Made by a program: the position numbers and the translations under genes. A stretch of 64,000 bases of DNA from Novosphingobium sp. KA1. GTDB taxonomy: Bacteria; Pseudomonadota; Alphaproteobacteria; Sphingomonadales; Sphingomonadaceae. The notes under the pieces were generated by a model. That model searched no databases. It worked only from the letters and a program-made list of their open reading frames with translations, and was not told the DNA's origin. This document shows, piece by piece, positions 3 through 15,214 of the stretch (position 1 is its first letter; every line of letters starts with the position of its first letter). The DNA lies in contig NZ_CP021247.1 of NCBI RefSeq assembly GCF_017309955.1, positions 3,559,001 through 3,623,000 on the forward strand. Direction: 5' to 3'.

Positions 3-923
3 GCCGGAATCGACTTGCGCAAACGCGCCCGCGAGTCGGAACAGCAGGGGCCGTTCGACCTTGACCGCTACCTCTACGACAGCCTGCGGCCGGGGCGGGT
101 CTATTCGATCGGGGAGATGATCGACCACGACCCCGTGGCGCGCGCGGATCGCAACCGGCGCATGGCGAAGCTTGGCATCGGCGACGAGCGCGTGGTGCGG
201 ATCGCCGGCGGCGAGCGCTACAGCGCATGGCTGCTGATGGCGCGTGCGCGCGAGTGCACCGCCGCCGACAGCGCCCTGCTCTCCAGCCTGGCGCCTTACG
301 TGGCCATCGCGGTCGAGAATCTCGTGGCGATGGACCGCGACCGGCTTGCGGCGCGGATCAACGCCATGGGGCTGGAGCGCACCGGCAAGGGCTGGATGCT
401 TCTGGATGCCGAAGCGCGCATCGTGGTGGCCGATCGCGCGCTGGCGGAATTCTGGCAGACGCACTGCGGCGCGGCGCTGCGCCCGGGCGAGCGCGTGCTG
501 GGCCTCGACCTTGCCGCCGAGCGCAAGCTGGCGGCCATCGCGGCGGAAATGACCCAGGCCCCCGCGCTGTCCGCACGGCCGCTGCTGCTGCGGGACAACC
601 CGCATATCGAGGCGCTGCTAATGCCCGCCGAGAATGCGCAGACCCTCGCGGCACCGGCGATCCTGGCGCTCTGCACCCTGCCCCGCCCGCATTCGGATCA
701 GAGCGCCGAACGACTGGCAGCCGTCTTCGACCTGCCCCGGCGCGAGGCGGAACTGGCAATGGCGCTGGCGGACGGCCACTCCATCGCCGAAGCGGCGGAG
801 CGCATGGGCCTGACCCTGGAAACGGCGCGCAACTATTCCAAGCGGCTCTACGCCAAGCTGGGCGTGCGCGGGCAAGCGGAACTCGTGCGGCTGGTTTATG
901 AGAGCAGCGCGGTGATGGCGTAA
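3..923 (+). CDS. LuxR-family transcriptional regulator (5' end outside window)
   Basis: The reading frame is open to the left edge, so the protein is probably longer than the 306 residues visible; a TTG codon at 15 could start it but has no clear ribosome site. The last ~60 residues form a LuxR/GerE helix-turn-helix (LPRREAELAMALADGHSIAE, then the recognition-helix stretch TLETARNYSKRLYAKLGV). The N-terminal part looks like a sensory region of unknown ligand (PAS/GAF-like size, not proven). It lies at the edge of the F420 island, tail to tail with the MBL-fold gene, so it may regulate the island; that is inference from position only. Confidence 0.8.
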   Translation, partial: AGIDLRKRARESEQQGPFDLDRYLYDSLRPGRVYSIGEMIDHDPVARADRNRRMAKLGIGDERVVRIAGGERYSAWLLMARARECTAADSALLSSLAPYVAIAVENLVAMDRDRLAARINAMGLERTGKGWMLLDAEARIVVADRALAEFWQTHCGAALRPGERVLGLDLAAERKLAAIAAEMTQAPALSARPLLLRDNPHIEALLMPAENAQTLAAPAILALCTLPRPHSDQSAERLAAVFDLPRREAELAMALADGHSIAEAAERMGLTLETARNYSKRLYAKLGVRGQAELVRLVYESSAVMA

Positions 924-971: not shown

Positions 972-1080
972 AAAACTTCGTCGCCCCCGCGCAGGCGGGG
1001 GCCCCGCTTCCTTTTTGCACGCTAGCGCGAGGCCAGAAGACCAAGCGGGGTCCCCGCCTGCGCGGGGACGACGAGGTTTT
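972..1080. repeat. GC-rich inverted repeat, family 1, copy 1
   Basis: Two 38-base arms (972-1009 and 1043-1080) are inverted repeats with about three mismatches around a 33-base loop. The core is CCCCGCGCAGGCGGGG. It sits exactly between the 3' ends of two convergent genes, so it may also end transcription from both sides. A related copy lies at 14413-14503, again between convergent genes. Such palindromes are commonly dispersed in sphingomonad genomes. Confidence 0.85.
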
Positions 1081-1086
1081 AGCAGA

Positions 1087-2334
1087 TCAATCCCCCAGCT
1101 TGGCCTCCATCGCCCCGATTTCCGAACGCAGCCACATCATCTCGGACAGGTTCCTGCCGCCCGACGCCGCCAGCAGCGCCTCATGCGCCGCCTTGCGCAC
1201 GGTCAGCACCGCCGCATTGTCCGGCTCCGCGCTGAGGGCAATATCGGTCAGATGCACGGCCTCCAGCGGAGCGCCCGCATCGAGCTTCGCCTGCGCCCGT
1301 TCCGCCAGCTTGACCGCGCCGCCAGCCAGTTCGACCAGATCGCCATCCACACTGGAACGCGGCACGCCGTAGAGCGCCGTCGTACCGTCCTCATAGTGCA
1401 GCCAGCCCGCGTACTCGCGCCAGATCGACTTGACCGCCCAGGCTGCCTTGCCGTGGAATTCGCCGATCTCCAGCCCCTCGGGCCAGACGAATTCGCGCAT
1501 CAGCCTGTGCACGTCCTTGCCCGCCTTCATGCCTTCCAGCGTATAGTCGCGCACGTAGCTTACCGCCGCGTGCATCCTGTCGAGATCGGCACGGATGCGC
1601 TCGGCTCCGCGAATGGCCTCGCCGTGGCCGGTAACAACGATCTCGGCCCCAAGGTCGCGGATCGTCTCCAGCGACTTCAGGTAGTTGCGCACCAGACGCG
1701 GCTTGTCTCCGCGCAGGGTGTTGAGGAACGGCATCGACAGCCAGACCGGCCCGAAGACATTGCCGGTAAAGGCGATCTTCTCCTTGGGCAGCCAGACCGT
1801 CAGCGCATCGACGGTCTCGCCCTCGGGCGTGGAGATCAGTTCGAAGGTCCGCCCGCCAAGATCGATGGTCAGGCGGCGGTCGACGAGGATGTCGGGAACC
1901 ACGTGCGGGGCCGGCTTGGGCGAACCGCCGCGCTTCAGCGTCGCCCCCCAGAGCTTCCCGCTCCTTGGCCCGAAAAAGGGCTGGAGGTCCATCATGTCCG
2001 AAAGCGCTTCATTGAAGCCCGGCCCGCCGACGACCTGCGTGCCCTGCTCCAGGAATTCCGGCACGCCGCCGAAGTGGTCCGCATGGCTCTGCGTCAGGAT
2101 GATAAAGGCCAGCGGCCCGGTGCGATGCGGGGTCAGCAAGCGCTTGGTGCGCTCTGCATTGTCCATGAAGCCGGTGTTGATCATGACGTCGCCCTCGGAC
2201 GTCGTCACGAGGTAGGCGTTCGAGATATCGTTCGCCTGAAACACGAAATCGGTGACCGCGATAGCCTCGGCCTGCTCGTCACCCGAGCGGACCAGGCCCG
2301 CCAGCTTCGGACCGGCATCCTTCATATCGGCCAT
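1087..2334 (-). CDS. MBL-fold metallo-hydrolase, alkylsulfatase-like
   Basis: 415 residues: an N-terminal metallo-beta-lactamase domain followed by a helical region resembling the alkylsulfatase dimerisation domain (YAGWLHYEDGTTALYGV onward, with a TPR-like ADIALSAEPDNAAV-type stretch). The metal motif reads TQSHADHFGG at residues 81-90: His84, Asp86 and His87 are present, but the first His of HxHxDH is Gln82. Family members hydrolyse sulfate esters or lactone-type substrates; the substrate here is unknown. The start is supported by GAGGAGG just upstream, lying inside the end of the preceding gene. It is last of a three-gene operon (SDR, zinc ADH, this gene) with 1-base spacing. Confidence 0.85.
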   Translation of the reverse strand: MADMKDAGPKLAGLVRSGDEQAEAIAVTDFVFQANDISNAYLVTTSEGDVMINTGFMDNAERTKRLLTPHRTGPLAFIILTQSHADHFGGVPEFLEQGTQVVGGPGFNEALSDMMDLQPFFGPRSGKLWGATLKRGGSPKPAPHVVPDILVDRRLTIDLGGRTFELISTPEGETVDALTVWLPKEKIAFTGNVFGPVWLSMPFLNTLRGDKPRLVRNYLKSLETIRDLGAEIVVTGHGEAIRGAERIRADLDRMHAAVSYVRDYTLEGMKAGKDVHRLMREFVWPEGLEIGEFHGKAAWAVKSIWREYAGWLHYEDGTTALYGVPRSSVDGDLVELAGGAVKLAERAQAKLDAGAPLEAVHLTDIALSAEPDNAAVLTVRKAAHEALLAASGGRNLSEMMWLRSEIGAMEAKLGD

Positions 2335-2335
2335 C

Positions 2336-3343
2336 TCAAGCCTCCTCGATCCCGATCATGACTTTGGCGGACTGCGGCGTGGCGGCAATTTCCAGGCCCT
2401 TCATGATTTCGCTGAACGGCAGCTTGTGGCTGATCATCGGCGCGATCTTGTCCTTCAGGCGGGGCATGGCGGCGACAACTTCAGGCATTTCGGTGGGATA
2501 GCCAACCGCCGTGGTGATCGTCATCTCGCTGGTCAGCATGCGGCCGACCGGGAACTCGATGGGCCGCATGTAGGCGGCGGTGATGACCAGCCTGGCATGC
2601 AGCTTGGCCATGATGATCACATCGGTCAGGATGTTGGGCGCGCCCGCCGCGTCGATGAAGGCATCGGTGCCCACGCCCACGCGGCCGTAGCTGGGCACTT
2701 CGCCGTGCAGTTTCGCCAGTTCCGCCCGCAGATCGACCTTCGTGGGATCGAGCGCAGCCTGCACGCCCAGCGCCCGCGCGCGCTCCAGGCGCTCTTCGGA
2801 AAGGTCCAGCGCGACGACATCGGTCACGCCGCGATCGACCAGCCAGAGCAACATGCCAAGCCCGATCGGCCCGCAGCCGAACACGACGACCTTGTCACCC
2901 GGCTTCACATCGGCGCGGTTGACGCCGTGCATGGCCACGGCCAGCGGCTCGCACATCGCGGCCACGTCGTAGGAAATGCCCTCGGGGATCGGCAGGATGG
3001 AATCGCCGAGGCGCGCCTCGCGCACCAGCAGTTCCTGCGTGAACGCGCCTTCCGGGCCGCCCGAACCGATGTTGCTGGGCGTCATCATCGGGTTGACGAT
3101 GACGGCATCACCCACCGCGATCCCGGCGACTTCGGCGCCGACTTCCATCACCTCGCCCGCGCCTTCATGGCCCAGCGCGGTCTCCACGCCCGGCGGAATG
3201 CCGCCCATCTTGATGTAGGACAGGTCCGATCCGCAGATGCCAACCGACTTCATCCTGACGACCACGTCCTTCGGCCCGGCCGCCGGACGTTCGTAGGCAT
3301 CGAGGCGAACGTCGCCTTGCCCATGAATCTTGAGCAATTCCAT
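2336..3343 (-). CDS. Zinc-type alcohol dehydrogenase (MDR superfamily)
   Basis: 335 residues, NAD(P)-dependent medium-chain dehydrogenase resembling sorbitol/threonine dehydrogenases. Catalytic zinc ligands are visible: Cys37 (CGSD), His59-Glu60 (GHEGAGE) and Glu132 (CEPLAVAMHG); the Rossmann loop is GCGPIGLG at 156-163. The usual four-cysteine structural-zinc lobe is absent: the stretch around residues 82-100 has no cysteine. I chose the ATG preceded by GGGGAGAG; an upstream TTG five codons earlier would swallow that ribosome site. Middle gene of the operon with the SDR and the MBL hydrolase, suggesting oxidation of an alcohol intermediate; the substrate is not known. Confidence 0.9.
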   Translation of the reverse strand: MELLKIHGQGDVRLDAYERPAAGPKDVVVRMKSVGICGSDLSYIKMGGIPPGVETALGHEGAGEVMEVGAEVAGIAVGDAVIVNPMMTPSNIGSGGPEGAFTQELLVREARLGDSILPIPEGISYDVAAMCEPLAVAMHGVNRADVKPGDKVVVFGCGPIGLGMLLWLVDRGVTDVVALDLSEERLERARALGVQAALDPTKVDLRAELAKLHGEVPSYGRVGVGTDAFIDAAGAPNILTDVIIMAKLHARLVITAAYMRPIEFPVGRMLTSEMTITTAVGYPTEMPEVVAAMPRLKDKIAPMISHKLPFSEIMKGLEIAATPQSAKVMIGIEEA

Positions 3344-3365
3344 CACGTCTCTCCCCAAGCCCCGC

Positions 3366-4160
3366 TTACGGGCGAACCATGTAGCCGCCGTCGATCGTGA
3401 CCGTCTCGCCGGTCATGAACGAACTTGCGTCCGAGCAAAGATAGGCGCCGATGCCCTCGAAGTCGGCCGGATAGCCGGTGCGCTTCATCGGGATCGTCGG
3501 CGCGAAATGCGCGGCCACGGCATCAGCGCGGGCGCCCTCGCCCATCATCGGCGTGATGACGAGGCCCGGCGCCACGACGTTGGCGCGAATGCCCAGCGGA
3601 GCCAGCTCGATGGCCAGACAGCGGATCGCCGCCGCCACCGCCGCCTTCGATGCGGCATATTCCATCTTGCCCGGCAGACCCTGGAACAGCGAGAGCGAAC
3701 CACAGGCGACAAGGCTGCCGCCGCTTTGGTCTCCCGCCTCCACGCGCTCCTTCATCAACCGCGCGCCTTCACGCAGCGTGAAGAACGCACCGTCCAGCGC
3801 AGTCTTCTGGAATTCGTACCAATGCTCGGTCGGCATCTCGAAGGCCGAGTTGTAGCGCGGGCTTGCACCGGAGTTGGCAAACACGCAGTCCACCCGGCCG
3901 AAATCGGCCATCACCTGCTCGTAACCGGCCTTGATGTTCGCCTCTTCCGAAACGTCGACCTGATAGGCGATCACCCTGCACGCGCCGGCCGCTTCCAGTT
4001 CGGCCTTGGCCTTCGCGCTCTTTTCCGCGTTGCGCGCCCAGATCGCCAGATCGCCGCCCATCTTGGCCACGCCCATGGCAAAGCCGAAGCCGATACCGCC
4101 GTTGCCGCCGGTCACCACCGTCACCTTGCCCGTGCAGTCAAAAAGGCCCTTGGCCATCAT
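3366..4160 (-). CDS. Short-chain dehydrogenase/reductase (SDR)
   Basis: 264-residue classical SDR. The cofactor loop is TGGNGGIG at 17-24 and the active-site Tyr168-x3-Lys172 sits in MEYAASKAA, with Ser in the preceding VACGSLSLF segment. NNAG is altered to ANSGAS. The C terminus GETVTIDGGYMVRP is typical of FabG-like enzymes. The ribosome site GAGGAGAG precedes ATGATG. It is first gene of the SDR-ADH-MBL operon and diverges from the AraC regulator, which probably controls it. Role: interconversion of an alcohol/ketone in the island's pathway (inferred). Confidence 0.9.
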   Translation of the reverse strand: MMAKGLFDCTGKVTVVTGGNGGIGFGFAMGVAKMGGDLAIWARNAEKSAKAKAELEAAGACRVIAYQVDVSEEANIKAGYEQVMADFGRVDCVFANSGASPRYNSAFEMPTEHWYEFQKTALDGAFFTLREGARLMKERVEAGDQSGGSLVACGSLSLFQGLPGKMEYAASKAAVAAAIRCLAIELAPLGIRANVVAPGLVITPMMGEGARADAVAAHFAPTIPMKRTGYPADFEGIGAYLCSDASSFMTGETVTIDGGYMVRP

Positions 4161-4257
4161 TCTCTCCTCGATCCCTCCACCGACTTTCCTGCCGGCACTT
4201 TCGTTGGCGCGATGTTTCCCGTGGGCGGCTTGTCCCGCAAGTGTGGCAATCGTAGAG

Positions 4258-4297
4258 TTCGGGCCCTATCCAAGCATCAGGGACACGAATTCGGGCC
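4258..4297. promoter_or_regulatory. Direct repeats in divergent SDR/AraC promoter region
   Basis: The octamer TTCGGGCC occurs twice (4258-4265 and 4290-4297), 32 bases apart, about three helical turns, inside the 167-base gap between the divergent SDR operon and the AraC-family gene. AraC-type regulators bind direct half-sites, so this is a candidate operator; no binding evidence is available. Confidence 0.3.
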
Positions 4298-4327
4298 AGC
4301 GACCCGACACGCCCCGGAGAGCCTGCC

Positions 4328-5224
4328 ATGCCCGAAACGCAACTTGCCCATTCGCCGACGATGATTGTCGATGCGGAACTTTCCGCAGCCGGAATCACCG
4401 CGCAGATCGTGCGGTTCGACATTCCCGAACCGACCGACACGCGCCATGCCCTCGGCTCGGGCTATCATGTCAACATGTGCCTGACCCCGCGCCCGCTGGA
4501 CTCGCGCGGCGGCTATCGCGAGCGCTGGGGCCCGCACCGGTTCGAACGTCTGGGCGACATCTTTGCGATCCCCCCCGGAGAGGCGCTCTACATTCGCGGC
4601 GGCAGCGGCCGGCAAGCCTCCCTGGTCTGCACCATCGACGCCGCGTTGGTGCACGACCTGCTCGGCCGAGAACTGCCGTGGGACGATGCGCACCTCGCCG
4701 CAGCGCTCGACATCGGCAGCGCGCATGTGCGGGCGCTGCTGTTCCGCATCACCGCCGAAGTGCGCCACCCCGGCCTTGCCGCGCAGCGCATGCTGGAACT
4801 GCTGGGCGGCGAACTGGCCATCGAGCTCGGGCGCTACGGCCTCGAAGTTGCCGAAAGACCGATGACCGGCGGCCTTTCCGGCTGGCGGCTGCGCCTGATC
4901 GAGGAACGGCTGGCCAGCGACCTCACTTCCCCGTCGCTCAAGGATCTGGCCGACATGTGCGGGCTCTCCGTGCGTCAGTTGACCCGCGGCTTTCGCGTCA
5001 GCCGCGCCTGCTCGATCGGCGACTATATCGAACAGCGCCGGATGGAAGCCGCCAAACGCCTGTTGATGGAAGGCGAAAGCGTGAAGACGGTCGCCTTCGC
5101 CATGGGCTTTGCCTCCCCCTCCAGCTTCACGTTCGCGTTTCGCCGCGCAGTGGGCGCCAGCCCCAGCACGTTCCGCCAGCGGCAGGCGCGCGCCTTGTCC
5201 TCGATGGCCTCCGCCGCAGCATGA
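4328..5224 (+). CDS. AraC-family transcriptional regulator
   Basis: 298 residues. The C-terminal ~100 residues carry the double helix-turn-helix of AraC/XylS proteins (LKDLADMCGLSVRQLTRGFR and VKTVAFAMGFASPSSFTFAF). The N-terminal ~185 residues are a probable ligand-sensing cupin-like domain. A CGGAGAG ribosome site precedes the ATG. It is divergent from the SDR-ADH-MBL operon and upstream of the sulfotransferase, so it is likely the local activator of one or both; the effector is unknown. Confidence 0.9.
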   Translation: MPETQLAHSPTMIVDAELSAAGITAQIVRFDIPEPTDTRHALGSGYHVNMCLTPRPLDSRGGYRERWGPHRFERLGDIFAIPPGEALYIRGGSGRQASLVCTIDAALVHDLLGRELPWDDAHLAAALDIGSAHVRALLFRITAEVRHPGLAAQRMLELLGGELAIELGRYGLEVAERPMTGGLSGWRLRLIEERLASDLTSPSLKDLADMCGLSVRQLTRGFRVSRACSIGDYIEQRRMEAAKRLLMEGESVKTVAFAMGFASPSSFTFAFRRAVGASPSTFRQRQARALSSMASAAA

Positions 5225-5371
5225 GGGGCGGCGGGTCTTGGCCCATATTCGACATTACGTCCTGATCCGTCATGTCAGCCGCATTGCCAAGGCGGCTCTC
5301 CCGCTGGCTATCTCATGGCGATGAGGTCGCCGCAGCGGCCCGCGCCGAGACACGGGAAAGAGGATCACGAA

Positions 5372-6553
5372 ATGACCGAACACCTCACGATGGACAAACT
5401 CGTCGGTGATGCACTCGTCGAACAGGCGATGAACGAGACCGGCATCCACACCTTCGACAACGACACATGGCGCGAAGGCTTCGACGTTCTTGTGGGCGAT
5501 TTCAACGCCGGCATCGCGCGCGGTCAATATACCGAGGGCGGTATAGCCCGCGCGAAGGCGGACATCGTGCACTATCTGCGCGGCCGCCTGAAGATCTCCG
5601 ACTACCTGCGCCAGAACCCTGAATTGCTCAGTCGCCCGGTCGAAAAGCCGGTCTTCGTGATGGGCGTGCCGCGCACCGGCACCACGCTGCTCTCGAACCT
5701 GCTCGCCGCCGACCCGGCGCGCCGCTCGCCGCTGACCTGGGAAATCGACGATCCGGTCCCGCCGGTCGCCTCGAAGGAACTGCTCACCACCGATCCGCGC
5801 GCGCAGGCCCGTCTGGCGCAGGAAAAGGCGATGCTCGAGGCCAATCCGGCGATGGGCAAGTACTATCGCGGCTCGGCCGTCTATCCGAACGAGTGCGTGT
5901 TCTTCATGGCGCACGACTTCAAGACACTGATGATCGATTCCAAGGGCAAGCTGCCGGGCTACAAGGAATTCATCTTCTCCTGCGACATGACCAGCGCCTA
6001 CGAATACCACAAGAAGTTCCTGCAAGTACTCCAGCAGAACGCCGGCGGCGTGTGGAACGTGAAGAAGCCCAGCCATGCGCTATGGCTGGAGACGATTTTC
6101 AAGGTCTATCCCGACGCCCGCGTGCTCTGGGCGCACCGCGATCCCTTCACCGCCACAGGGTCGCTCTGCTCGATCATCTCGCTCAGCCACATGGCACACA
6201 TGGGCAAGCCGGATACCGCGTGGCTCAAGGAAAACTACACCTGGCAGGCCGCCGAGCACGCCAACCGGATCATGGATTTCCGTGACAGGCATGGCGAGGA
6301 CAAGATTATCGACGTCCACTACGCCGATATGACGGCCGATCCGATCGGCACCATGAAAAAGGTCTACCGGCAACTGGGCGACGAATGGACCGCCGAGGCA
6401 GAGGCCGGGATCCAGCAGTGGGTGGACGACAACCCGCAGGACAAGTTCGGCAAGCACGAATACAAGCTGGCCCAGTACGGCATCGACAAGGCCGAACTCG
6501 AACCGCTCTTCGAACGCTATCTTTCGCGCTACGACGTCGCCCGCGAGGGCTGA
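5372..6553 (+). CDS. Sulfotransferase family protein
   Basis: 393 residues, predicted cytoplasmic PAPS-dependent sulfotransferase. The 5'-phosphosulfate loop GVPRTGTTLLSNLLAAD is at 98-114, and a 3'-phosphate-binding stretch VLWAHRDPFTATGSLCSI lies near the middle. The start is the ATG after GAAAGAGG, 19 codons downstream of an earlier in-frame ATG. It is followed by the VOC gene with a GC-rich hairpin in between. In this setting it may sulfate a hydroxylated substrate or, as in some pathways, act on an activated intermediate; no specific acceptor can be assigned. Its neighbour three genes upstream is an alkylsulfatase-like MBL protein. Confidence 0.85.
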   Translation: MTEHLTMDKLVGDALVEQAMNETGIHTFDNDTWREGFDVLVGDFNAGIARGQYTEGGIARAKADIVHYLRGRLKISDYLRQNPELLSRPVEKPVFVMGVPRTGTTLLSNLLAADPARRSPLTWEIDDPVPPVASKELLTTDPRAQARLAQEKAMLEANPAMGKYYRGSAVYPNECVFFMAHDFKTLMIDSKGKLPGYKEFIFSCDMTSAYEYHKKFLQVLQQNAGGVWNVKKPSHALWLETIFKVYPDARVLWAHRDPFTATGSLCSIISLSHMAHMGKPDTAWLKENYTWQAAEHANRIMDFRDRHGEDKIIDVHYADMTADPIGTMKKVYRQLGDEWTAEAEAGIQQWVDDNPQDKFGKHEYKLAQYGIDKAELEPLFERYLSRYDVAREG

Positions 6554-6571
6554 GACGGCGAACTCCTTCCA

Positions 6572-6601
6572 GACCCGTCGCCCTCGCCGGGGCGACGGGT
6601 C
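6572..6601 (+). other. Intercistronic GC-rich hairpin
   Basis: GACCCGTCGCCC (6572-6583) and GGGCGACGGGTC (6590-6601) form a perfect 12-bp stem with a 6-base loop between the sulfotransferase and VOC genes. There is no T-run, so it is more likely an mRNA-stabilising or attenuating structure than a terminator. Confidence 0.6.
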
Positions 6602-6633
6602 CAGGGGCTTGCGCAAGACTGCAGGAGAGACCG

Positions 6634-7107
6634 ATGCTTGAAGGCCGCCATTACCAGAACGCCTACGTCTGCGACAATCTTGAAGCCGGAATCGACCTGT
6701 TCCGCAGGCGCGGGCTCGTCCGTGAACCGGTAATCATCCCGGTGGACCAGCAAGTGCTCACGCCGCAGGGCCTGAAACGCCAGAAGGGGCGGATCTGCTT
6801 CATCTGGATCGGCGAACTCCAGATCGAACTGATCGAAAACGAGATCGACGAAGTGGGCATCTACGCGGGTTGCCAGTCGAACGGTGGACCGCTGCGCTTC
6901 CACCATATCTGCTTTGGGGTGGACGACTGGCCGGACTTTCGCAAACGGGTCGACAGCCAGGAGTTTCCCATCGCCATGGAGCGCGAGCCTGACGACAATC
7001 CGGACGCGCTGAAGTTCCTCTACCTCGATGCCCGCAAGGTCTTCGGGCACTACATCGAATACACCTGGATGCCCGAAGCCATGTGGCAGCAGATCAAGGC
7101 CATGTAA
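6634..7107 (+). CDS. VOC (glyoxalase/bleomycin-resistance) superfamily protein
   Basis: 157 residues with the beta-alpha-beta-beta-beta pattern of vicinal-oxygen-chelate proteins (YQNAYVCDNLEAGIDLFRRR at the start; RFHHICFGVDDW at about residue 90; FGHYIEYTWM near the end). Candidate metal ligands are His and Glu in HHICF, IELIE and HYIEYTW. The start follows a GCAGGAGAG ribosome site. Members include epimerases, dioxygenases and isomerases, and nothing here decides between them. Probably co-transcribed with the sulfotransferase. Confidence 0.8.
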   Translation: MLEGRHYQNAYVCDNLEAGIDLFRRRGLVREPVIIPVDQQVLTPQGLKRQKGRICFIWIGELQIELIENEIDEVGIYAGCQSNGGPLRFHHICFGVDDWPDFRKRVDSQEFPIAMEREPDDNPDALKFLYLDARKVFGHYIEYTWMPEAMWQQIKAM

Positions 7108-7116
7108 GGTCCCGGT

Positions 7117-9435
7117 TCAAACCGCTTCCAATGCCACTTCGCCGTAAAGCGTGGTACGCTGCTTCAATGTGCGCCCCACGCTTTCCGCCGCCGTGCGCAG
7201 TTCCGCGATCGTCACCCCCTGCCCGTGTGCTGCCCCTGCGGCGCGGCTGATGCTTTCATCCATCAGCACACCGCCAAGGTCGTTGGCGCCCGCTGCCAGC
7301 ACGGCGGCGGCCCCGTCCATGCCCAGTTTCACCCAGGAGCACTGGATCGAGTTGATCGCCCCATTCAGCGCCAGACGCGCCACCGCGTGCATCATTACCG
7401 CCTCGCGCCAGGTCGGCCCCTTGCGGCACTGTCCACGCCGGTAGAAGGGCGCTTCCATGTGCACGAGCGGCAGCGGCACGAATTCGGTGATGCCGCCGGT
7501 TTCGAGCTGGAGATTGCGCAGCGCCAGCAGGTGCCGCGCCCAGTGCCCGATGCCTTCGAGGTGACCGAACATCACCGTGGACGTCGTCGGCAGGCCGACA
7601 GCATGCGCGGTGCCGACCACATCCAGCCATTCCTGCGTGGTCAGCTTGCCCGGGCAGATCTGCTCGCGAATGTCGTCGCAAAGGATCTCGGCCGCCGTAC
7701 CGGGCAGCGAGCCCAGCCCCGCATCCTTCAGCATCGCCAGATAGTCCCGCACCGGCATGCCCAGCGTACGCGCGCCCTGGCTTACTTCCAGCGGAGAGAA
7801 GGCGTGGACATGAAGGTCCGGGCACGCCGCTTTCACTTCGCGCAAGATCGAAAGGTAGGTTTCGCCGGTATAGCTCGGGTGGATGCCGCCTTGCAGGCAG
7901 ACTTCGGTCGCCCCGCGCTCCACCGCTTCGCGCGCGCGGCCCGCGACTTCCGACAAGTCGAGATTGTAGGGCTTGTCACGGAAGCCCGCCTTGCTGCTGG
8001 TCTTCGAGAAAGCGCAGAACGAGCAAGTGTGCGTGCAGATGTTGGTGTAGTTGATGTTGCGATTGACGACGTACGTCACTGCATCGCCGCTGACTTCGGC
8101 GCGCAGGGCGTCGGCCGCGGCGATCACCGCCTGCGCCGCAGCGCCGCGCGTGGCAAAAAGATCGACGATCTCGTCCTCGCTGAGCGTCACGCCGCTCGCC
8201 GCACGATCAAGAATACGATGGAGCGAGGCTGCGACCGGGCCGGCATGGAACTGCCCCAGCGGAGCGCGAACACTGCCTGGTGCATGCTGATCGGCCAGAC
8301 CGGGGCTCCAGACGCTGTCGCGCGCCAGCCCCTCGGCATCGGCATGGCGTAGCACGGCTGGCCGGATCGCCGAATCGAGCCATGAACGGTCCTCGCTCAT
8401 CACGAAGCGCGGATAGACCGTCAGGCGCTCGACCAGCGGCAGGCCCTTGGTCGCGCAGATCGCACGCAGCCGCTCCACTTCGGGCCAGGGCGCTTCCGGG
8501 TTTACATGATCGAGCGTTACCGGAGAGATGCCGCCCCAATCGTCGATCCCCGCGTCGATCAGTTCGACAAGCCGCTCATCATTCAGATTGGGCGGCGCCT
8601 GTATCGATACTTCGTCCGGCAGCAGGATGCGCGCGGCGGCGACCACGCGCAGGAAATCCGCCTCGCTCGCTTCCGGCGCGCGGGCCATCTTCGTGCCTGG
8701 CTTGGGGCAGAAGTTCTGGACGATCACTTCCTGCAAATGGCCATGCTCGCGGTGCAGATCGCGCAAGGCGATCAGCGCGTCGATGCGTTCTTCCGCCGTC
8801 TCGCCAATGCCGATCAGCACGCCGCTGGTCATCGGCACCTGTGCGCGACCGGCCGCCGCCAGCGAGGCGAGCCGCAGCGCCGGCACCTTGTCAGGCGAGC
8901 CATGGTGGCACATGCCCTTTTCCAGCAGCCGCTCCGACGTGCTTTCCAGCATCAGCCCCACCGAAGCCGCGACCGGGCGCAGCATCCGGTAGTCCACTTC
9001 CTCCAGCACACCGGCGTTGACGTGCGGCAGCAGGCCGGTTTCCTTCAGCACCAGTTCGGCGCAGTGGCGCACATAGTCCACGGTGCGCGCGAAGCCCCGC
9101 TCCGCCAGCCAGTCGCGCGCGGCGGCATAACGGCGCTCCGGGGCATCGCCCAGCGTGAACAGCGCCTCCCGGCACCCCGCCGCGGCCCCGGCGCGGGCTA
9201 TGTCCAGCACTTCCTCAGGCGTGAGGTAGGGTGCCTCGAGCCGCGACGGCGTCGTCGCGAACGTGCAGTAGTGGCAGACGTCCATGCAAAGGCGTGTCAG
9301 CGGGATGAAGACCTTGGGCGAATAAGTCATCCGCGCCGGACCGTTTGCCTCGCGCCGCGCCCTTGCCCGCGCGGTGACGTCCTCCAACTGAGCCGCCAGC
9401 AGCCATGCCTTCAGCGTGTGGCTATCATCCTGCAT
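7117..9435 (-). CDS. fbiC: 7,8-didemethyl-8-hydroxy-5-deazariboflavin (FO) synthase, CofG-CofH fusion
   Basis: 772 residues; a fusion of two radical-SAM enzymes that join tyrosine and the flavin precursor 5-amino-6-ribitylaminouracil to form FO, the chromophore of coenzyme F420. The CofG half has its [4Fe-4S] cysteines at C50, C54 and C57 (CMDVCHYC). The CofH half has CTHTCSFC near residue 466. The N-CofG/C-CofH order and length match actinobacterial FbiC; archaea have two separate genes. Ribosome site GAAGGGTGAG. It follows cofD by 11 bases in the cofE-cofD-fbiC operon. F420 genes are sparse in Proteobacteria, which suggests transfer into this lineage. Confidence 0.97.
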   Translation of the reverse strand: MQDDSHTLKAWLLAAQLEDVTARARARREANGPARMTYSPKVFIPLTRLCMDVCHYCTFATTPSRLEAPYLTPEEVLDIARAGAAAGCREALFTLGDAPERRYAAARDWLAERGFARTVDYVRHCAELVLKETGLLPHVNAGVLEEVDYRMLRPVAASVGLMLESTSERLLEKGMCHHGSPDKVPALRLASLAAAGRAQVPMTSGVLIGIGETAEERIDALIALRDLHREHGHLQEVIVQNFCPKPGTKMARAPEASEADFLRVVAAARILLPDEVSIQAPPNLNDERLVELIDAGIDDWGGISPVTLDHVNPEAPWPEVERLRAICATKGLPLVERLTVYPRFVMSEDRSWLDSAIRPAVLRHADAEGLARDSVWSPGLADQHAPGSVRAPLGQFHAGPVAASLHRILDRAASGVTLSEDEIVDLFATRGAAAQAVIAAADALRAEVSGDAVTYVVNRNINYTNICTHTCSFCAFSKTSSKAGFRDKPYNLDLSEVAGRAREAVERGATEVCLQGGIHPSYTGETYLSILREVKAACPDLHVHAFSPLEVSQGARTLGMPVRDYLAMLKDAGLGSLPGTAAEILCDDIREQICPGKLTTQEWLDVVGTAHAVGLPTTSTVMFGHLEGIGHWARHLLALRNLQLETGGITEFVPLPLVHMEAPFYRRGQCRKGPTWREAVMMHAVARLALNGAINSIQCSWVKLGMDGAAAVLAAGANDLGGVLMDESISRAAGAAHGQGVTIAELRTAAESVGRTLKQRTTLYGEVALEAV

Positions 9436-9446
9436 CTGCTCACCCT

Positions 9447-10406
9447 TCAGATGCCTGCGAGGGCAAGCACCTCCTTCGCGAGCCTTTCCCTGTCGGCGGC
9501 TTCGCGCATCATTGTCGTCGTCACGGTGACCGTGAGGCCCCGTGCCTGCAAACCAGAGACATCGGCCTCATCGGCATGATCGATCAAGAGGTGGTCGAGA
9601 AGATCGCTGTAGTGATGAGCGATAGCCGCATTGCTCACCGCCTGCCCGCGCTCGGCCAGCATCTTGGCCAGCGGGCCTTTCACCGAGGTTCCGCCGACAA
9701 TCGGCGAGACTGCGATCAGCGGCACCCGCCGCGCCGCCAGCGCAGCGCGCACGCCGTCGACGGCAAGGATCGGATCGACACTGAGGAACGGGTTGGACGG
9801 GCAGACGACGATGGCGGCAAGGTCTTCCCGTGCCAGTGCGTCAGCAAATCCGGACGAGGGTTTAGCCCCCGCCGCGCCCTCGAAACGTACATCAGAAACC
9901 ACCGGAACGCATTGATCCCCCACGAACCAGCGCTGAAAATCTGTCCAGCCTGCCTCCGTAAGCACCTGCGTGCGCACCGGATCGTCGCTCATCGGCACAA
10001 CCGTATGGGCGATCCCGAGTTCGTGCGTCAGCCGCGCCGTCACTTCAGAAAGCGTCTCACCTGCACGCAGCCGCCATGACCGCGCAATGTGCATCGCCAT
10101 GTCGCGGTCGCCAAGGTTGAACCACCCCTCCTCGCCCAGCGCGCGGAGCATGGCCATGGTCTGCCACGTCTCGTCCTTCACGCCCCAACCGCGCTGGGCA
10201 TCGTTGAGACCGGCGAGCGCATAAGTCACAGAATCCATGTCAGGACATATAGTTAGACCGAGATGCTCGAAATCGTCTCCAGTATTGATGACGATCGTGA
10301 GATCTGCCGGCGCCATGACTGCAGCGAGCCCCGCAGCCAGCTTCGCCCCGCCGACGCCGCCCGAAAGCGCGAGTACGTGCCCCGCTTGCTGTTTTTGGCC
10401 GTTCAT
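9447..10406 (-). CDS. cofD: 2-phospho-L-lactate transferase (FbiA/CofD)
   Basis: 319 residues. Transfers the phospholactyl-type moiety from a GDP-activated C3 acid made by CofC onto FO, giving F420-0 or its dehydro form. The family signature LSGGVGGAKLAAGL begins at residue 14, followed by NTGDDFEHLGLTICPDMDSV, the FO/GDP-binding segment. Its start codon overlaps the cofE stop as ATGA, so translation is coupled. Which C3 acid is transferred (2-phospholactate, phosphoenolpyruvate or 3-phosphoglycerate) cannot be read from the sequence. Confidence 0.95.
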   Translation of the reverse strand: MNGQKQQAGHVLALSGGVGGAKLAAGLAAVMAPADLTIVINTGDDFEHLGLTICPDMDSVTYALAGLNDAQRGWGVKDETWQTMAMLRALGEEGWFNLGDRDMAMHIARSWRLRAGETLSEVTARLTHELGIAHTVVPMSDDPVRTQVLTEAGWTDFQRWFVGDQCVPVVSDVRFEGAAGAKPSSGFADALAREDLAAIVVCPSNPFLSVDPILAVDGVRAALAARRVPLIAVSPIVGGTSVKGPLAKMLAERGQAVSNAAIAHHYSDLLDHLLIDHADEADVSGLQARGLTVTVTTTMMREAADRERLAKEVLALAGI

Positions 10407-11185
10407 CGGAACATATCCTGCTCGATAGGCCGAAGCCCGCTTACCGCGCCGGGGCCGTCTTCCTCCGTCACCCAGCGCTCGCAGCCGCGCACCAGCGCGA
10501 CCGGAGTGCCTTCCGCGCCTTCACCCATCGCCAGCGCTGCCATGGCGGCAACCGAGTCCGCAATGCCGATCACCGTGGCCTGAAGCGTGCGGCCGTAAAG
10601 ATCCTGCCCGCGACCACGGCGGTCTTCCAGCACGGTCAGCCCCGCGCAGCCGATGGCATGGCCCAACGTGCCGATCCGCCAGGCCCGCCCCATCGAATCC
10701 GCGACCACCACGCCGATCCGAACTTTACACGCTTTCTGAAGTTCGCCCCGCAGCGCCCGCGCCGAGGCATCGGGTTCGAGCGGCCAGAGCAGCACACGGC
10801 CAGCCTCTCCGCCTTCCACGTTCGATGCGTCGATCCCGGCATTGGCCAGCACGTGCCCGGTGCGATGCGCCGCGATCACGGCCGCCGGAGTGCAGCGCAG
10901 GACCTGGGAACTCTCCTCTAGTATCGCCTGCATCATCCCAGGATCGCGGCCGGTTGTACGGGTAAGTTCATGTGCTTCCTCAGAAGGCATGAACGCCGCA
11001 AGATCGCGCGTGCGGCCCTCCACCTTGGAGACGATCTTCTGCGCAACCACCAAGATATCGCCATCGCGTAACCGGTCACCTTCGCCTGCGAGGCTCGCGC
11101 ATATCGCTTGCGCAATCGACATTCCGGCAGCGAACATAGGTAGCCCCGTCAGCGGTCGCACGGTCAGTTCTGGATTTCGCTTCAT
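10403..11185 (-). CDS. cofE: Coenzyme F420-0:L-glutamate ligase
   Basis: 260 residues; adds L-glutamates to F420-0 using GTP. Family segments are RPLTGLPMFAAGMSIAQAIC near the N terminus, GDILVVAQKIVSKVEGR, and VADSMGRAWRIGTLGHAIGC near the middle. The length is that of stand-alone CofE; the C-terminal FMN nitroreductase domain of actinobacterial FbiB (dehydro-F420 reductase) is absent. I chose the ATG preceded by GGGAGGG; a longer upstream frame lacks a ribosome site and family similarity. First gene of the operon, divergent from npdG. Confidence 0.93.
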   Translation of the reverse strand: MKRNPELTVRPLTGLPMFAAGMSIAQAICASLAGEGDRLRDGDILVVAQKIVSKVEGRTRDLAAFMPSEEAHELTRTTGRDPGMMQAILEESSQVLRCTPAAVIAAHRTGHVLANAGIDASNVEGGEAGRVLLWPLEPDASARALRGELQKACKVRIGVVVADSMGRAWRIGTLGHAIGCAGLTVLEDRRGRGQDLYGRTLQATVIGIADSVAAMAALAMGEGAEGTPVALVRGCERWVTEEDGPGAVSGLRPIEQDMFR

Positions 11186-11270
11186 CGGCCCTCCCGAACC
11201 ACCGTGTCTAAAGCTGCCGCACCGGGAACGACAATGACAACGACCAAGAATTCGCAGGGGAGATGATCTG
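11186..11270. promoter_or_regulatory. Divergent promoter region between cofE and the F420 reductase gene
   Basis: These 85 bases must carry the start signals of both F420 operons. On the minus strand TTGTCG and TTAGAC are spaced 17 bases apart and could serve as -35/-10; the plus-strand gene has a good ribosome site (AGGGGAG). No clear operator palindrome was seen. Confidence 0.35.
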
Positions 11271-11921
11271 ATGGCAGCGATCGCGGTGATCGGCGGGACC
11301 GGCGCGCTGGGCAAGGGCATTGCCCGAAGGCTCGTCAAGGCGGGGCATCAGGTGACGATCGGATCCCGCACGGCGGACAAAGCCCGTGCGGCGGCCGAGG
11401 AACTCGGGGCGGCGGGCTATGCCGAGAATGGCGAGGCCGCGCAGGGCAAGGACGTGGTGATCGTCACCGTGCCCCATGCTTCGCAAGGCGAGACCCTGCG
11501 CCAGATCGCGAACGTGATCGGCTCGGCCGTGGTCGTCGACACCACCGTGCCGCTGGTGCCGCCCAAAGTCATGCGCGTGCAGCTTCCTGCAGAGGGCAGC
11601 GCCGCGATGCAGGCTCGTGAGCATCTGGGGCCGGACACCCGCCTCGTCACCGCGTTCCACAACGTCTCTGCCCACCACCTCGACAGCGATCACGCCATTG
11701 ACTGCGACGTGCTGGTCTTCTCGGACGATGTGGAGGCGCGCCAGACCGTTGTGGACTTGTGCCCGGGCATGGGCCTGCGCGGGCTTTCCGGCGGCGGCCT
11801 GGCCAATTCGGCGGCGGCGGAGGCGCTGACCTCGATCCTCATCTACATGAACAAGACCTACAAGGCCGACGGGGCCGGAATACGCTTCACCAACCTCACC
11901 GCAGCGCCCCAAGTGCCGTGA
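11271..11921 (+). CDS. npdG: F420-dependent NADP reductase (F420H2:NADP oxidoreductase)
   Basis: 216 residues. Moves hydride between NADPH and F420, supplying reduced F420H2 to dependent enzymes. The N-terminal Rossmann loop is VIGGTGALGKGIARRL, and SRTADKARAAAE provides the Ser/Arg that favour the NADP 2'-phosphate. The C-terminal dimer segment GGLANSAAAEALTSILIYMN is typical of the Fno/NpdG family. The stop overlaps the GTG start of cofC (GTGA). Being with the biosynthesis genes, it is the likely electron entry point for the adjacent luciferase-like oxidoreductase. Confidence 0.92.
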   Translation: MAAIAVIGGTGALGKGIARRLVKAGHQVTIGSRTADKARAAAEELGAAGYAENGEAAQGKDVVIVTVPHASQGETLRQIANVIGSAVVVDTTVPLVPPKVMRVQLPAEGSAAMQAREHLGPDTRLVTAFHNVSAHHLDSDHAIDCDVLVFSDDVEARQTVVDLCPGMGLRGLSGGGLANSAAAEALTSILIYMNKTYKADGAGIRFTNLTAAPQVP

Positions 11922-12562
11922 GCTGCTGGGCGCTCATCCCGGTCAAGGCGCCAGGCATGGGAAAGACCCGGCTGGCCTCCGCGCTCGATCCTGACGAGCG
12001 CGAGGCACTGGTTTCAGGCATGTTGCGCCATGTGCTTGATACCCTGCGCGGCTGCCGGGCAATCCAGCGCGTCTGCGTATTGGGTCCGGCGCGGCCCAAT
12101 CTGGGTAGCGGGGTACTGCGTTTCGACGATCCGGGCCCCGACCTCAACGGAGCGCTGGAAAGCACGGTATCGGCCATCACCGCAGCGGGACCGGAACGTA
12201 TCCTGGTGCTGCCGGCAGACCTGCCGTGCATCACCGCCGCTGACATCGAACGGCTCGTAGATCTGCCCCACGATGCTCTGGGAATCGCCCCGGACCGTCA
12301 TCGCACCGGCACCAACGCGCTGTCCCTGCCATTGCCGGCAGGCATCTGGTTTCCCTTCTCCTTTGGTCAGGACAGCTTCTCAACCCATTGCGAACAAGCG
12401 ATAAATCGCGGCCTTACCGTGGAGACGATCCTCTCCTGCGGACTGGAGAAAGATATAGACGACCCTCTCGATCTCGTTGATGCTGTTCGCGTTTTAAGGC
12501 GCGTCTACAACCCGGCGATCGACGGTTGGCCACGCCCGGGAGGCCGAAAACGGCCCGGTTGA
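11918..12562 (+). CDS. cofC: Phospholactate/phosphoenolpyruvate guanylyltransferase (CofC/FbiD)
   Basis: 214 residues. Activates a phosphorylated C3 acid with GTP for CofD. Key segments are IPVKAPGMGKTRLASAL at the N terminus, VLPADLPCI at about 97-105 (metal-binding Asp), HRTGTNALSL and FGQDSFSTH. I chose the GTG that overlaps the npdG stop as GTGA; the open frame further upstream lies inside npdG and is not family-like. Substrate preference differs between lineages (2-phospholactate, PEP or 3-phosphoglycerate) and determines which F420 variant is made. Confidence 0.9.
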   Translation: MSCWALIPVKAPGMGKTRLASALDPDEREALVSGMLRHVLDTLRGCRAIQRVCVLGPARPNLGSGVLRFDDPGPDLNGALESTVSAITAAGPERILVLPADLPCITAADIERLVDLPHDALGIAPDRHRTGTNALSLPLPAGIWFPFSFGQDSFSTHCEQAINRGLTVETILSCGLEKDIDDPLDLVDAVRVLRRVYNPAIDGWPRPGGRKRPG

Positions 12563-12575
12563 AGGGAGAACGGGT

Positions 12576-13433
12576 GTGGATGCCTCGGTCATCGACCTGT
12601 CGGGGAAAGTCGTGTTCGTCACCGGTGGCGGCGGCGGGATCGGGCGAGCGATCGCGCTCTGCATGGCCGATATGGGTGCAGACATCGCGATCCTTGAGGC
12701 GATCCCCGAACGCTGCGATCAGGTAGCCGAACTGATCGAGGCGCGCGGGCGCAAGGCGCTGTGCATCGCCGGAAATGCCATGGACGCCGATTTCGTGCAG
12801 GATGCCGTTACCGAGGCGGCGCGCCATTTCGGGCGGCTTGACGTGCTGGCGAACAACGTCGGCGGCGTGTCCCGGCGGCCCTTCGCGGACCTCACCGAGA
12901 AGAACTGGCGCCGCCATATCGATCTCAACCTCGTCTCCAACCTTGCCGCCACGCAGGCCGCGCTGCCGATCATGATCGAAAGCGGGCGTGGAGGTTCAAT
13001 CATCAACGTCACCAGCATCGAGGCGTCGCGCGCGGCGCCGGGCTACGCGGTCTATGCCGCGTGCAAGGCCGGGATCAACAACCTCACCCGTACGCTGGCG
13101 GTTGAGCTTGCCCACCACGGCATCCGCGTGAACGCCATCGCGCCCGACTATACGGTAACGCCGGGCACCCGCGGCCAGTTCACCGGGCCGGTCGATCCGC
13201 TGCTCTGGCATCGCCCCTCGCCTGCGCAGGAAGAGGCGATCCGCCGCCGCATCCCGCTCGGCCGTGCAGGCGTCGACGAGGAATGTGGCCGCGTCGCCGT
13301 GTTCCTCGCCTCCGAAATGGCCACATACGTCACCGGCACGATCATCCCGGTCGACGGCGGCACCTGGGCATCCGGCGGATGGGTGCGCAACAGCGATGAA
13401 AACTGGGTGCTGCCGCCCGAACCCACCGATTGA
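12576..13433 (+). CDS. Short-chain dehydrogenase/reductase in F420 operon
   Basis: 285-residue classical SDR: cofactor loop TGGGGGIG at 16-23, NNVGG at 93-97, Ser147, and Tyr160-x3-Lys164 (YAACK). GTG start after GAAGGGAG, 13 bases past cofC, so probably co-transcribed. The C-terminal extension after the usual VDGG motif (GTWASGGWVRNSDENWVLPP) is family-specific, close to substrate-processing SDRs of xenobiotic or steroid pathways. It uses NAD(P), not F420. Probably prepares or consumes the ketone/alcohol handled by the next gene; the substrate is unknown. Confidence 0.88.
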   Translation: MDASVIDLSGKVVFVTGGGGGIGRAIALCMADMGADIAILEAIPERCDQVAELIEARGRKALCIAGNAMDADFVQDAVTEAARHFGRLDVLANNVGGVSRRPFADLTEKNWRRHIDLNLVSNLAATQAALPIMIESGRGGSIINVTSIEASRAAPGYAVYAACKAGINNLTRTLAVELAHHGIRVNAIAPDYTVTPGTRGQFTGPVDPLLWHRPSPAQEEAIRRRIPLGRAGVDEECGRVAVFLASEMATYVTGTIIPVDGGTWASGGWVRNSDENWVLPPEPTD

Positions 13434-13450
13434 ACGAGAGACCGCACGCC

Positions 13451-14371
13451 ATGACCTTCACGCTCAGCACCAGCCTGCCTTTCGACCGGATCGACAGGCC
13501 GGAGGAATTCGGCACCATGGAGGCCGTGCACGAGATTGCCCGCACGGTCGAGAAGGCAGGCTTCCACGCCGGCACCGTCACCGATCACCCTGCTCCCTCG
13601 GCACGCTGGCTGGATGCGGGCGGACACTACGCGCAGGATCCGTTCGTGATGCTGTCGATGCTGGGCGCGGTGACCACCAGGCTACGGCTGCAGACCAACA
13701 TTCTGGTACTGCCGTACCGCAATCCCTTCGTGGTGGCGCGCGGGGTCTCGTCGCTGGACCACTTCACCAATGGCCGCGTGGTTCTGGGCCTTGGCGCCGG
13801 GTACATGAAGGCGGAATACAAAGCGCTGGGCGTCGATTTCGACAGCCGCAACGACCTCATGGACGAGTACATCACGGCGATGAAGCTGGCCTGGACGGGC
13901 GAGGACTTCACATTCGAGGGCAGCGGATACACCGCGCTGGGCAATCGCATGCTGCCGACGCCGGTGCAGAAGCCGCACCCCCCGCTTCTGGTCGGCGGCA
14001 ATTCGCGGCGCGCGCTGCGCCGGGCAGCGGAGATGGGCGATGCCTGGCACCCGTTCTTTGTGCCCAAGTCGGTGACCGACACCGCCCGCACCGCCAATCT
14101 GGAGGGTGACGAAGACATCAGCGAGGCCATCGCCTACATGCACGCCCATGCCGAGAAGATCGGGCGTGCGGAGCCGCCGAAGGTCATCGCCTCGTCCACC
14201 TATTCGATCAAAGAGGGCTGGAGCGCGCCGGAAGCGCTGGACCACTTCGCGCACCTCAAGTCGCTTGGCATCCATGGCGCCGGCGCAACGGTGCATGCCG
14301 ATACGCGCGCGGAATATTGCGATCTGGCACTGAAATTCGGGGAGGATGTGATCGCGAAGATTGATTTTTGA
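13451..14371 (+). CDS. Luciferase-like F420-dependent oxidoreductase
   Basis: 306 residues, TIM-barrel bacterial-luciferase superfamily. The signature RVVLGLGAGYMKAEYKALGV near residue 110 and PPLLVGGNSRRALRRAAEMG near 180 match the F420-dependent branch (LLM class), which reduces or oxidises substrates with F420H2/F420. The ATG after GAACGAGAG is used; an upstream TTG adds seven residues. It is last in the npdG-cofC-SDR operon, which makes F420 rather than FMN its likely cofactor and makes it the island's best candidate for the F420-using catalytic step. Confidence 0.87.
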   Translation: MTFTLSTSLPFDRIDRPEEFGTMEAVHEIARTVEKAGFHAGTVTDHPAPSARWLDAGGHYAQDPFVMLSMLGAVTTRLRLQTNILVLPYRNPFVVARGVSSLDHFTNGRVVLGLGAGYMKAEYKALGVDFDSRNDLMDEYITAMKLAWTGEDFTFEGSGYTALGNRMLPTPVQKPHPPLLVGGNSRRALRRAAEMGDAWHPFFVPKSVTDTARTANLEGDEDISEAIAYMHAHAEKIGRAEPPKVIASSTYSIKEGWSAPEALDHFAHLKSLGIHGAGATVHADTRAEYCDLALKFGEDVIAKIDF

Positions 14372-14412: not shown

Positions 14413-14503
14413 CTCGTCGCCCCCGCGAAGGCGGGGGCCCCGCTTCCCTTTTTGCCACGTCGCAAAGAACAAGCGGGATCCTCGCCTTCGCGGGGATGAC
14501 GGG
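14413..14503. repeat. GC-rich inverted repeat, family 1, copy 2
   Basis: Arms of 33 bases (14413-14445 and 14471-14503) are inverted with about six mismatches; core CCCCGCGAAGGCG. The loop keeps CCCTTTTTGC, also found in copy 1. Like copy 1 it lies between two convergent gene ends (the luciferase-like gene and thiE). Confidence 0.85.
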
Positions 14504-14575: not shown

Positions 14576-15214
14576 TCAGGCCATCGCCCCGGTCATCGCC
14601 TCGTGGAAAGCCTTGACCGCTGCGGCCTCATCGCCGTTCCACACCGCACCCGACACCGCAAGGAAATCGGCTCCGGCCTTCACCAGCGGCGCGCAGTTTC
14701 CGGGCGTGATACCGCCGATGGCAACGCAGGGAATTTCGAAGATCGACTGCCACCATTCCAGCAGGTCGAGCCCCGCCATGTGCTTCACGTCCTTGGTGGT
14801 CGTGGGGAAATAGGCACCGAAAGCCACGTAGTCCGCGCCCTCTTCGCCCGCGTCCATCGCAAGATGGCGGCTGTTGTTGCAGGTCACGCCGATCTGCGCG
14901 TCACGGCCGAGCGCCTTGCGCGCTTCCTCGACCGAGCCGTCCTCCTGACCCAGATGCACGCCGTCCGCACCGAGGCGCTTGGCGAGGCTGGTGGAATCGT
15001 TGACGATGAAGGCCACGTCGCGATCGCCGCAAATCTTCTGCAGCGGCTCGGCAAGGCGCGCCGCCTCGTGCTGGTCCACGTCCTTGACGCGAAACTGGAA
15101 CGCCGCCACCGGCGCGGCATCGAGCGCGCGGGCCAGGCGTTCGGGGAAAGCGCCGGTCACATCGAGCGGCGAAATCAGGTAAAGCTGCGTCGGTTCGCGT
15201 TCAATCTCTTCCAT
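14576..15214 (-). CDS. thiE: Thiamine phosphate synthase
   Basis: 212 residues, TIM barrel. Couples the pyrimidine and thiazole phosphates to give thiamine phosphate. Seen: FQFRVKDVDQHEAARL (residues ~39-54), IVNDS and ADGVHLGQED for the pyrimidine/Mg site, VAFGAYFPTTTK and VAIGGITPGN for the phosphate site. The usual FRxK substrate-binding Arg-Lys pair is kept as RVK. No TPP riboswitch was recognised in the short gap upstream, so it is probably transcribed with the membrane-protein gene 27 bases upstream. Confidence 0.93.
   Translation of the reverse strand: MEEIEREPTQLYLISPLDVTGAFPERLARALDAAPVAAFQFRVKDVDQHEAARLAEPLQKICGDRDVAFIVNDSTSLAKRLGADGVHLGQEDGSVEEARKALGRDAQIGVTCNNSRHLAMDAGEEGADYVAFGAYFPTTTKDVKHMAGLDLLEWWQSIFEIPCVAIGGITPGNCAPLVKAGADFLAVSGAVWNGDEAAAVKAFHEAMTGAMA

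Follow-up and report, generated by a model that had tools for sequence, protein, structure and literature searches.

Why do Proteobacteria make coenzyme F420? The question stands as an unanswered one in the available part of the review PMC8498797, and it is raised again by a stretch of DNA from Novosphingobium sp. KA1. In this 64-kb stretch (the window; C1:3559001-3623000 of a 5.78-Mb genome in 3 contigs), a block of 13 genes fills positions 1087-14371 between a luxR-type regulator gene and thiE. The part nearer thiE carries genes for the synthesis and reduction of F420, followed by genes for a short-chain dehydrogenase (SDR2) and an oxidoreductase of the luciferase-like monooxygenase (LLM) family. 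The part nearer luxR is a second cassette that encodes, among others, a sulfotransferase and a metallo-beta-lactamase (MBL)-fold protein. Together the 13 genes probably form a single metabolic island, found in a Novosphingobium lineage and for the most part retained or missing as a whole, with a presumed chemistry and a presumed shared pathway. The model scores, together with the conserved gene order in named genomes of Novosphingobium, exclude chance as the source of this arrangement.

Conservation of the block within the genus

How faithfully do the two parts occur together? Even sampling of a larger group gave 119 genomes of the genus, among them KA1 and one other genome of its species, and orthologue cut-offs were set at gaps in identity (at least 55% for the sulfotransferase and the LLM protein, at least 50% for the MBL-fold protein). 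cofD is found in 49 genomes, KA1 included, and these split by identity into 38 of the window's cofD lineage (at least 61%; two partial genes) and 11 others (45-57%). The sulfotransferase orthologue is present in 35 of the 38, in none of the 11, and in none of the 70 genomes that lack cofD. The LLM orthologue follows closely (34/38, 1/11, and 0/70), as does that of the MBL-fold protein (34/38, 1/11, and 3/70, the last being G409, G456, and G462). The neighbouring thiE, serving as a control, occurs in 112 of the 119.

Gene order tells much the same story. Among named CofD matches, the nearest come from "Sphingomonas sp. IC081", at 99%, and from several members of Novosphingobium, at 83-95%. When window genes were compared by tblastn with the loci of relatives, the order luxR-block-PGK was found to be kept in IC081, N. 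clariflavum, and ST904, that from the MBL gene to PGK in PhB165, and that from luxR to the LLM gene in N. panipatense and PhB57 over the sequence compared. The sulfotransferase gene and cofD lie on one contig, 2.8-10.9 kb apart, in 29 of the 35 genomes. Contig breaks may account for their separation in G416, G437, G460, and G464; in G422 and G440 the cassettes lie well inside different contigs, both being retained. By genus profile and synteny alike, the flanking genes are kept together with the cofactor genes; a preliminary description of the locus had named non-conservation of these flanks as grounds for its refutation, and that refutation fails. The two cassettes of G466 are separated by about 7 kb, in which lie genes for an aldehyde dehydrogenase, a carboxymuconolactone decarboxylase-family protein, SDRs, and NAD_binding_2 proteins (locus L101, 284-6279); these are possibly further steps of a pathway.

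Where does the block sit when it is present, and what is found there when it is not? The luxR gene (15..923, plus strand; GerE over cut-off) and thiE (14576..15214, minus strand; PF02581) flank the block without belonging to it. In the 38 lineage genomes, cofD is no more than 20 kb from thiE in 23 and farther away on the same contig in 2; the two genes are on different contigs in 8, and 5 have no thiE hit at E<=1e-60. The thiE region was then inspected in eight genomes without the window's cofD lineage. In four (G474, G186, G473, and G481), thiE comes directly after luxR, their aligned ends being 16-27 bp apart; the first three lack F420 genes, and G481 carries a different cofD lineage elsewhere (the luxR match of G473 is in two pieces). 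In G384 the gene to the left of luxR is 45 bp from thiE, in G418 1.8 kb separate luxR and thiE, and in G458 and G450 no left neighbours were seen in the stretch examined. Because intact empty luxR-thiE sites occur in relatives, the block is best described as mostly a presence/absence unit at one place. In a local marker tree (rows under 190 residues left out; deep support weak), F420-less G418 groups with G146 (97/97) and F420-less G458 with ST904 (95/82). Since F420-less genomes thus fall among island-bearing ones, gain or loss appears to have happened more than once. No integrase or transposase is found among the domain matches of the 13 genes, so the block does not qualify as a self-mobile island. 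Its borders are marked by inverted repeats resembling repetitive extragenic palindromes (REPs), at 972..1080 on the left (38-nt arms, 92% complementary) and 14415..14501 on the right (31-nt arms, 84% complementary). These hold the only matches in the 64 kb, at up to 3 mismatches, to a 28-base pattern; a shorter REP core is seen in 9 of 158 loci and does not mark both block ends in every one of them. The available part of PMC10413115 contains no link to the flanking luxR.

Synthesis of F420 and the variant produced

The F420 genes form two operons that diverge from an 85-bp intergenic region (11186..11270). On the minus strand are, consecutively, the genes for FbiC (CofGH), which is the synthase of 7,8-didemethyl-8-hydroxy-5-deazariboflavin (FO) (7117..9435; NF006687, 1093 bits against a cut-off of 1018), CofD, the phosphotransferase acting on FO (9447..10406; TIGR01819, 290 against 257), and CofE, the F420-0:glutamate ligase (10403..11185, by start context; TIGR01916, 252 against 181). 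The plus strand carries the NADPH:F420 oxidoreductase NpdG/Fno (11271..11921; TIGR01915, 174 against 150), the guanylyltransferase CofC (11918..12562; TIGR03552, 135 against 105), whose GTG start overlaps the npdG stop, SDR2 (12576..13433; PF13561), and the LLM protein (13451..14371; TIGR03619, 226 against 167). NCBIfam equivalog cut-offs were used for the first five, while TIGR03619 is a subfamily-domain model. The FbiC translation contains CX3CX2C twice (CMDVCHYC and CTHTCSFC), as befits its two radical-SAM clusters. This layout is the one given in the preliminary description, which had called the set near-complete and placed it at 2336..14371. The set is real but was understated, as every core enzyme (FbiC, CofC, CofD, and CofE) and the reductase exceed their curated cut-offs, and those coordinates missed the MBL gene. 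In the established route, FbiC forms FO, CofC activates phosphoenolpyruvate (PEP) or 2-phospholactate, CofD joins the activated compound to FO, and CofE adds glutamates; with the families assigned here, the island would follow this route, and NpdG would then reduce F420 with NADPH. The sequence supports the earlier proposal that the island codes for making F420 and for reducing it with NADPH.

Which form of F420 would be made? The nearest solved relative of the window's CofC is 7p97, the Mycetohabitans enzyme that uses 3-phosphoglycerate (3-PG). No nitroreductase domain was matched in CofE, and the genome has no protein over the cut-off for the FbiB C-terminal kind of dehydro-F420 reductase (TIGR03553; the best, a nitroreductase-family protein, scores 55 bits against 249.55). 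These features would suit a 3-PG-F420 variant as in Mycetohabitans. The residues of CofC speak against it, however. According to the available part of Hasan et al. (PMC8764529), 3-PG use by Mycetohabitans CofC is governed by S162 and less by M91 and C95, and a change at H145 alone leaves specificity unaltered. In that numbering, the window's CofC has Gly at 162 (the specificity serine being absent), Leu at 91 and 95, and Thr at 145. Neither Ser nor Thr at 162, Met at 91, nor Cys at 95 appears in any of the CofC rows of 40 relatives (rows under 150 residues left out). The 3-PG reading was rejected on these residues, and we regard it as very improbable. Because they are Gly, Leu, and Leu, CofC is predicted to use PEP or 2-phospholactate instead. 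A dehydro-F420-0 reductase is required only where PEP is the precursor. Might synthesis then end at dehydro-F420, or might an unrelated reductase assist in making F420 from PEP? The PEP/2-phospholactate class of CofC and the weakness of the FbiB C-terminal matches lean this way, but the 2-phospholactate route may be used instead and the weak match is itself a nitroreductase-family protein, which leaves this a serious though minority possibility.

Distribution and lineages of F420 genes

The patchiness of F420 in Proteobacteria, remarked on in the preliminary description, is evident from the cofD counts in the genus and also more widely. With FbiC (E<=1e-100) in 60 of 385 alphaproteobacterial genomes, F420 genes are no rarity in that class; 26 of 396 Sphingomonadales have a cofD match over cut-off, KA1 being counted in both samples. 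Matches to FbiC at E<=1e-30 occur in 71 plasmid records, at no more than 59% identity to the window's protein. An FbiC phylogeny, which had been suggested as a check, was built by a quick method from 73 rows (after removal of rows whose match covered fewer than 600 residues and of five loci that were own or duplicate). In it the window's lineage falls into a clade of 19 rows with support of 100. A separate clade of 12 rows (100) unites plasmid copies from Croceicoccus, Sphingobium, and N. resinovorum with five genomes of the same genus; G424 and G213 fall near Aromatoleum. Because of these clades, at least three FbiC lineages can be recognized in the genus. Published mentions of F420 genes in Novosphingobium exist. 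Coenzyme F420 biosynthesis genes are given for six compared strains in the available part of the genome paper PMC13318209, and F420 synthesis is an ordinary finding for this group. Among the literature matches listed, there is no experimental F420 study in a sphingomonad, nor any report of a block-wise association of F420 genes with a sulfotransferase cassette.

How does the F420 part compare with clusters in other Proteobacteria? Those in plasmid records of Aromatoleum, Agrobacterium, Paraburkholderia, and Paracoccus (and in PMC8498797, so far as available) contain the same enzyme families plus NpdG, and in Agrobacterium and Paracoccus an LLM gene adjoins them as in the window. They differ in gene order, have no sulfotransferase in the stretches compared, and encode FbiC proteins at most 59% identical. 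Within the Sphingomonadales, plasmids pCME4A9I of Croceicoccus marinus and pSA2 of N. resinovorum carry F420 genes with a TIGR03619 LLM, an SDR, and a zinc-binding dehydrogenase in a catabolic-looking setting; unlike the window's genes, these are plasmid-borne, run in one direction, have other neighbours, and belong to the separate 12-row FbiC clade. A cofE-cofD pair on pSA2, close to the window's lineage (71% and 75% identical), lies among transposase and recombinase genes (L160, 11111-12873, and L141, 8875-13499, the two pSA2 loci). It is some 63 kb from fbiC-npdG-cofC-LLM, whose FbiC is of the other clade. The plasmid is typed as conjugative, and a mixed F420 pathway on one plasmid is possible.

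The sulfotransferase cassette

The second cassette, left of the F420 genes, is likewise divergent. Its minus strand encodes the MBL-fold protein (1087..2334; PF00753 and the alkylsulfatase-type dimerisation domain PF14863, both over cut-off), a zinc-dependent alcohol dehydrogenase (ADH) (2336..3358; PF08240 and PF00107; the start is perhaps ATG at 3343, by start context), and SDR1 (3366..4160; PF13561). On the plus strand follow an AraC-family regulator (4328..5224; PF12833), the sulfotransferase, of the Sulfotransfer_3 family (5315..6553; PF13469, 138 bits against a cut-off of 27; possible start, ATG 5372), and a VOC-like protein (6634..7107; PF13669, E 0.00039, below cut-off). Pfam thus bears out the oxidoreductases, sulfotransferase, and regulators noted earlier, with a reservation for the VOC-like protein, which scores 21.1 bits for VOC against 27. 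Many of its 260 homologues match PF13669, and Q63, H90, and E142 are invariant in 30 aligned sequences. A longer open reading frame (ORF) for it, 6385-7107, extends back across the intergenic gap and into the sulfotransferase gene.

Among proteins of solved structure, 2z6v is matched by the sulfotransferase at E=7e-86, and PRTGTT is shared in their alignment; we take this motif to be the loop that binds 3'-phosphoadenosine-5'-phosphosulfate (PAPS). Its orthologue (E<=1e-100) was found in 1 of 398 genomes sampled from the phylum, namely that of KA1, and the best plasmid match is 40% identical. In G466, a single genome, genes with PF01507, GTP_EFTU plus APS_kinase, and Inositol_P domains stand one ORF past the MBL gene; they read as PAPS synthesis of the ATP-sulfurylase and APS-kinase type, which would fit the PAPS need of a sulfotransferase.

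Is the MBL-fold protein an alkylsulfatase? It has the MBL fold and dimerisation domain in common with zinc alkylsulfatases of the SdsA1 type. The SdsA1-type signature (from the available part of PMC5066984) is present in an SdsA1 fragment but in none of 22 MBL rows, the window's included, and the metal motif HxHxDH is replaced by QxHxDH in 21 of the 22 (QSHADH in the window). The window's protein thus has Gln for the first His, and it also has Gly at the Glu of AENVVG and 415 residues against 658. A paralogue at 43% identity (L097) has no HxHxDH-type motif in the extracted stretch. A sulfate on/off pair of sulfotransferase and alkylsulfatase was considered and is weakened, as the MBL protein fails both the signature and the His motif.

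The closest known counterpart of the cassette is on plasmid pBSY17_1 of Sphingobium sp. RAC03, where VOC, helix-turn-helix regulator, SDR, ADH, MBL, and sulfotransferase genes are found together (identities to the window: ADH, 71%; SDR1, 58%; MBL, 57%; AraC, 51%; VOC, 41%; sulfotransferase, 38%). Unlike the window's cassette, it has no F420 gene within the stretch examined and adjoins genes for a TonB receptor and for MaoC and AMP-binding proteins; these neighbours suggest a catabolic unit.

One island or independent units?

Do the two parts really belong together? Several observations weigh against a single island with a shared pathway. The genus counts ignore phylogeny. Three lineage genomes lack the sulfotransferase orthologue, and while two of them are incomplete (G408, 75%; G478, 71%), G486 is 100% complete and is a true exception, with just the cofactor core between luxR and thiE and the cassette absent there. 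The LLM orthologue is missing from G404, which is 99% complete, as well as from G408, G434, and G478; the LLM proteins of G486, on another contig than its cofD, and of G464 (55%) may be paralogues. G422 and G440 are sisters in the FbiC tree, so their split cassettes represent one event. By eye, no operator common to the araC and npdG promoters was seen in the aligned promoter regions; a conserved TTG-N4-GCAA-like dyad in the araC/SDR1 region was not seen in that of cofE/npdG. A VOC-SDR-ADH-MBL cluster related to the window's is present in G462, G456, and G409, which have no cofD hit, and the sulfotransferase that goes with it is distant (35-39%). Because such cassettes occur without cofD, the cassette in general does not need F420. 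One might therefore propose two independent units, cofactor module and sulfotransferase cassette, which share a permissive chromosomal site and are deleted together. The cofD-less cassettes, the Sphingobium plasmid copy, and the core without cassette in G486 favor this view, as do the REP-like repeats at both borders, which could promote deletion. Yet the sulfotransferase is found in 35 of 38 lineage genomes against 0 of 81 others, and both parts have been kept where they are apart, on different contigs in G422 and G440 and at a distance of about 7 kb in G466. Independence is accordingly an unlikely reading, if one of some weight. A side note on the sister cassette of G456 (L096) is that P450, acyl-CoA dehydrogenase, AMP-binding, and fatty-acid-hydroxylase genes lie near it.

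The LLM protein raises doubts of its own. Its AlphaFold 2 model has the expected LLM fold (pLDDT 83), but that fold ties between F420 and FMN enzymes (Foldseek matches re-examined by VIA-align), and homologues are widespread, numbering 4904 at E<=1e-30. It could be an FMN-dependent monooxygenase, with F420 serving only enzymes elsewhere. We consider this distinctly improbable, given that its TIGR03619 score exceeds the cut-off and the profile favors F420, that the orthologue (at least 55%) occurs in 35 of 49 cofD genomes and 0 of 70 without cofD, and that its gene is in one run with npdG and cofC. F420 is probably not reserved for the island, because the genome has a further LLM protein over the TIGR03619 cut-off (on C2, among 10 LLM-superfamily matches) and, away from the island at C1:2472006, a deazaflavin-dependent nitroreductase-family protein over the TIGR00026 cut-off. 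The latter gene is at 9944-10459 of locus L080, and its surroundings are overlapped by an ORF that includes a FAS1-like dehydratase region. The earlier idea of one dedicated pathway is therefore only partly borne out: the conservation of the flanks with the cofactor genes favors it, and the genome's other F420-type enzymes, the cassettes without cofD, and the RAC03 plasmid cassette count against it. As to the LLM type itself, a 70% match in the gammaproteobacterium Haliea sp. E17, outside the order, indicates that it is not confined to sphingomonads. In G486 an SDR2-LLM pair (67% and 65%; L099, 8547-10448) is found apart from the F420 genes, and in G333 there is a second copy of the LLM gene (66%; G333:C45:202320); the pair may be duplicated or moved independently.

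A possible pathway and its meaning

What might the single island do with F420, once made and reduced? The LLM protein could reduce a small organic substrate with F420H2, or oxidise it with F420, and SDR2 could act on a neighbouring carbonyl or alcohol. The ADH, SDR1, the VOC-like protein, the sulfotransferase, and the MBL-fold protein, under AraC, would process the same substrate or its product, with the sulfotransferase sulfating an alcohol or phenol. In a tentative and rather doubtful version, the compound, which might be an alcohol, phenol, or terpenoid from plants or algae, would be reduced with F420H2 in an LLM/SDR step, sulfated from PAPS, and then processed by the MBL-fold protein with its substituted motif.

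If true, this would be an F420-sulfotransferase pathway of a kind not met in the literature among the matches listed, and would explain concretely what these Proteobacteria make F420 for. Should the cassette and the F420 enzymes share a substrate, F420 enzymes would gain a new reaction context. Because the block is present or absent at one site among close relatives, the F420 question can be approached in matched pairs of strains and with a short list of genes.

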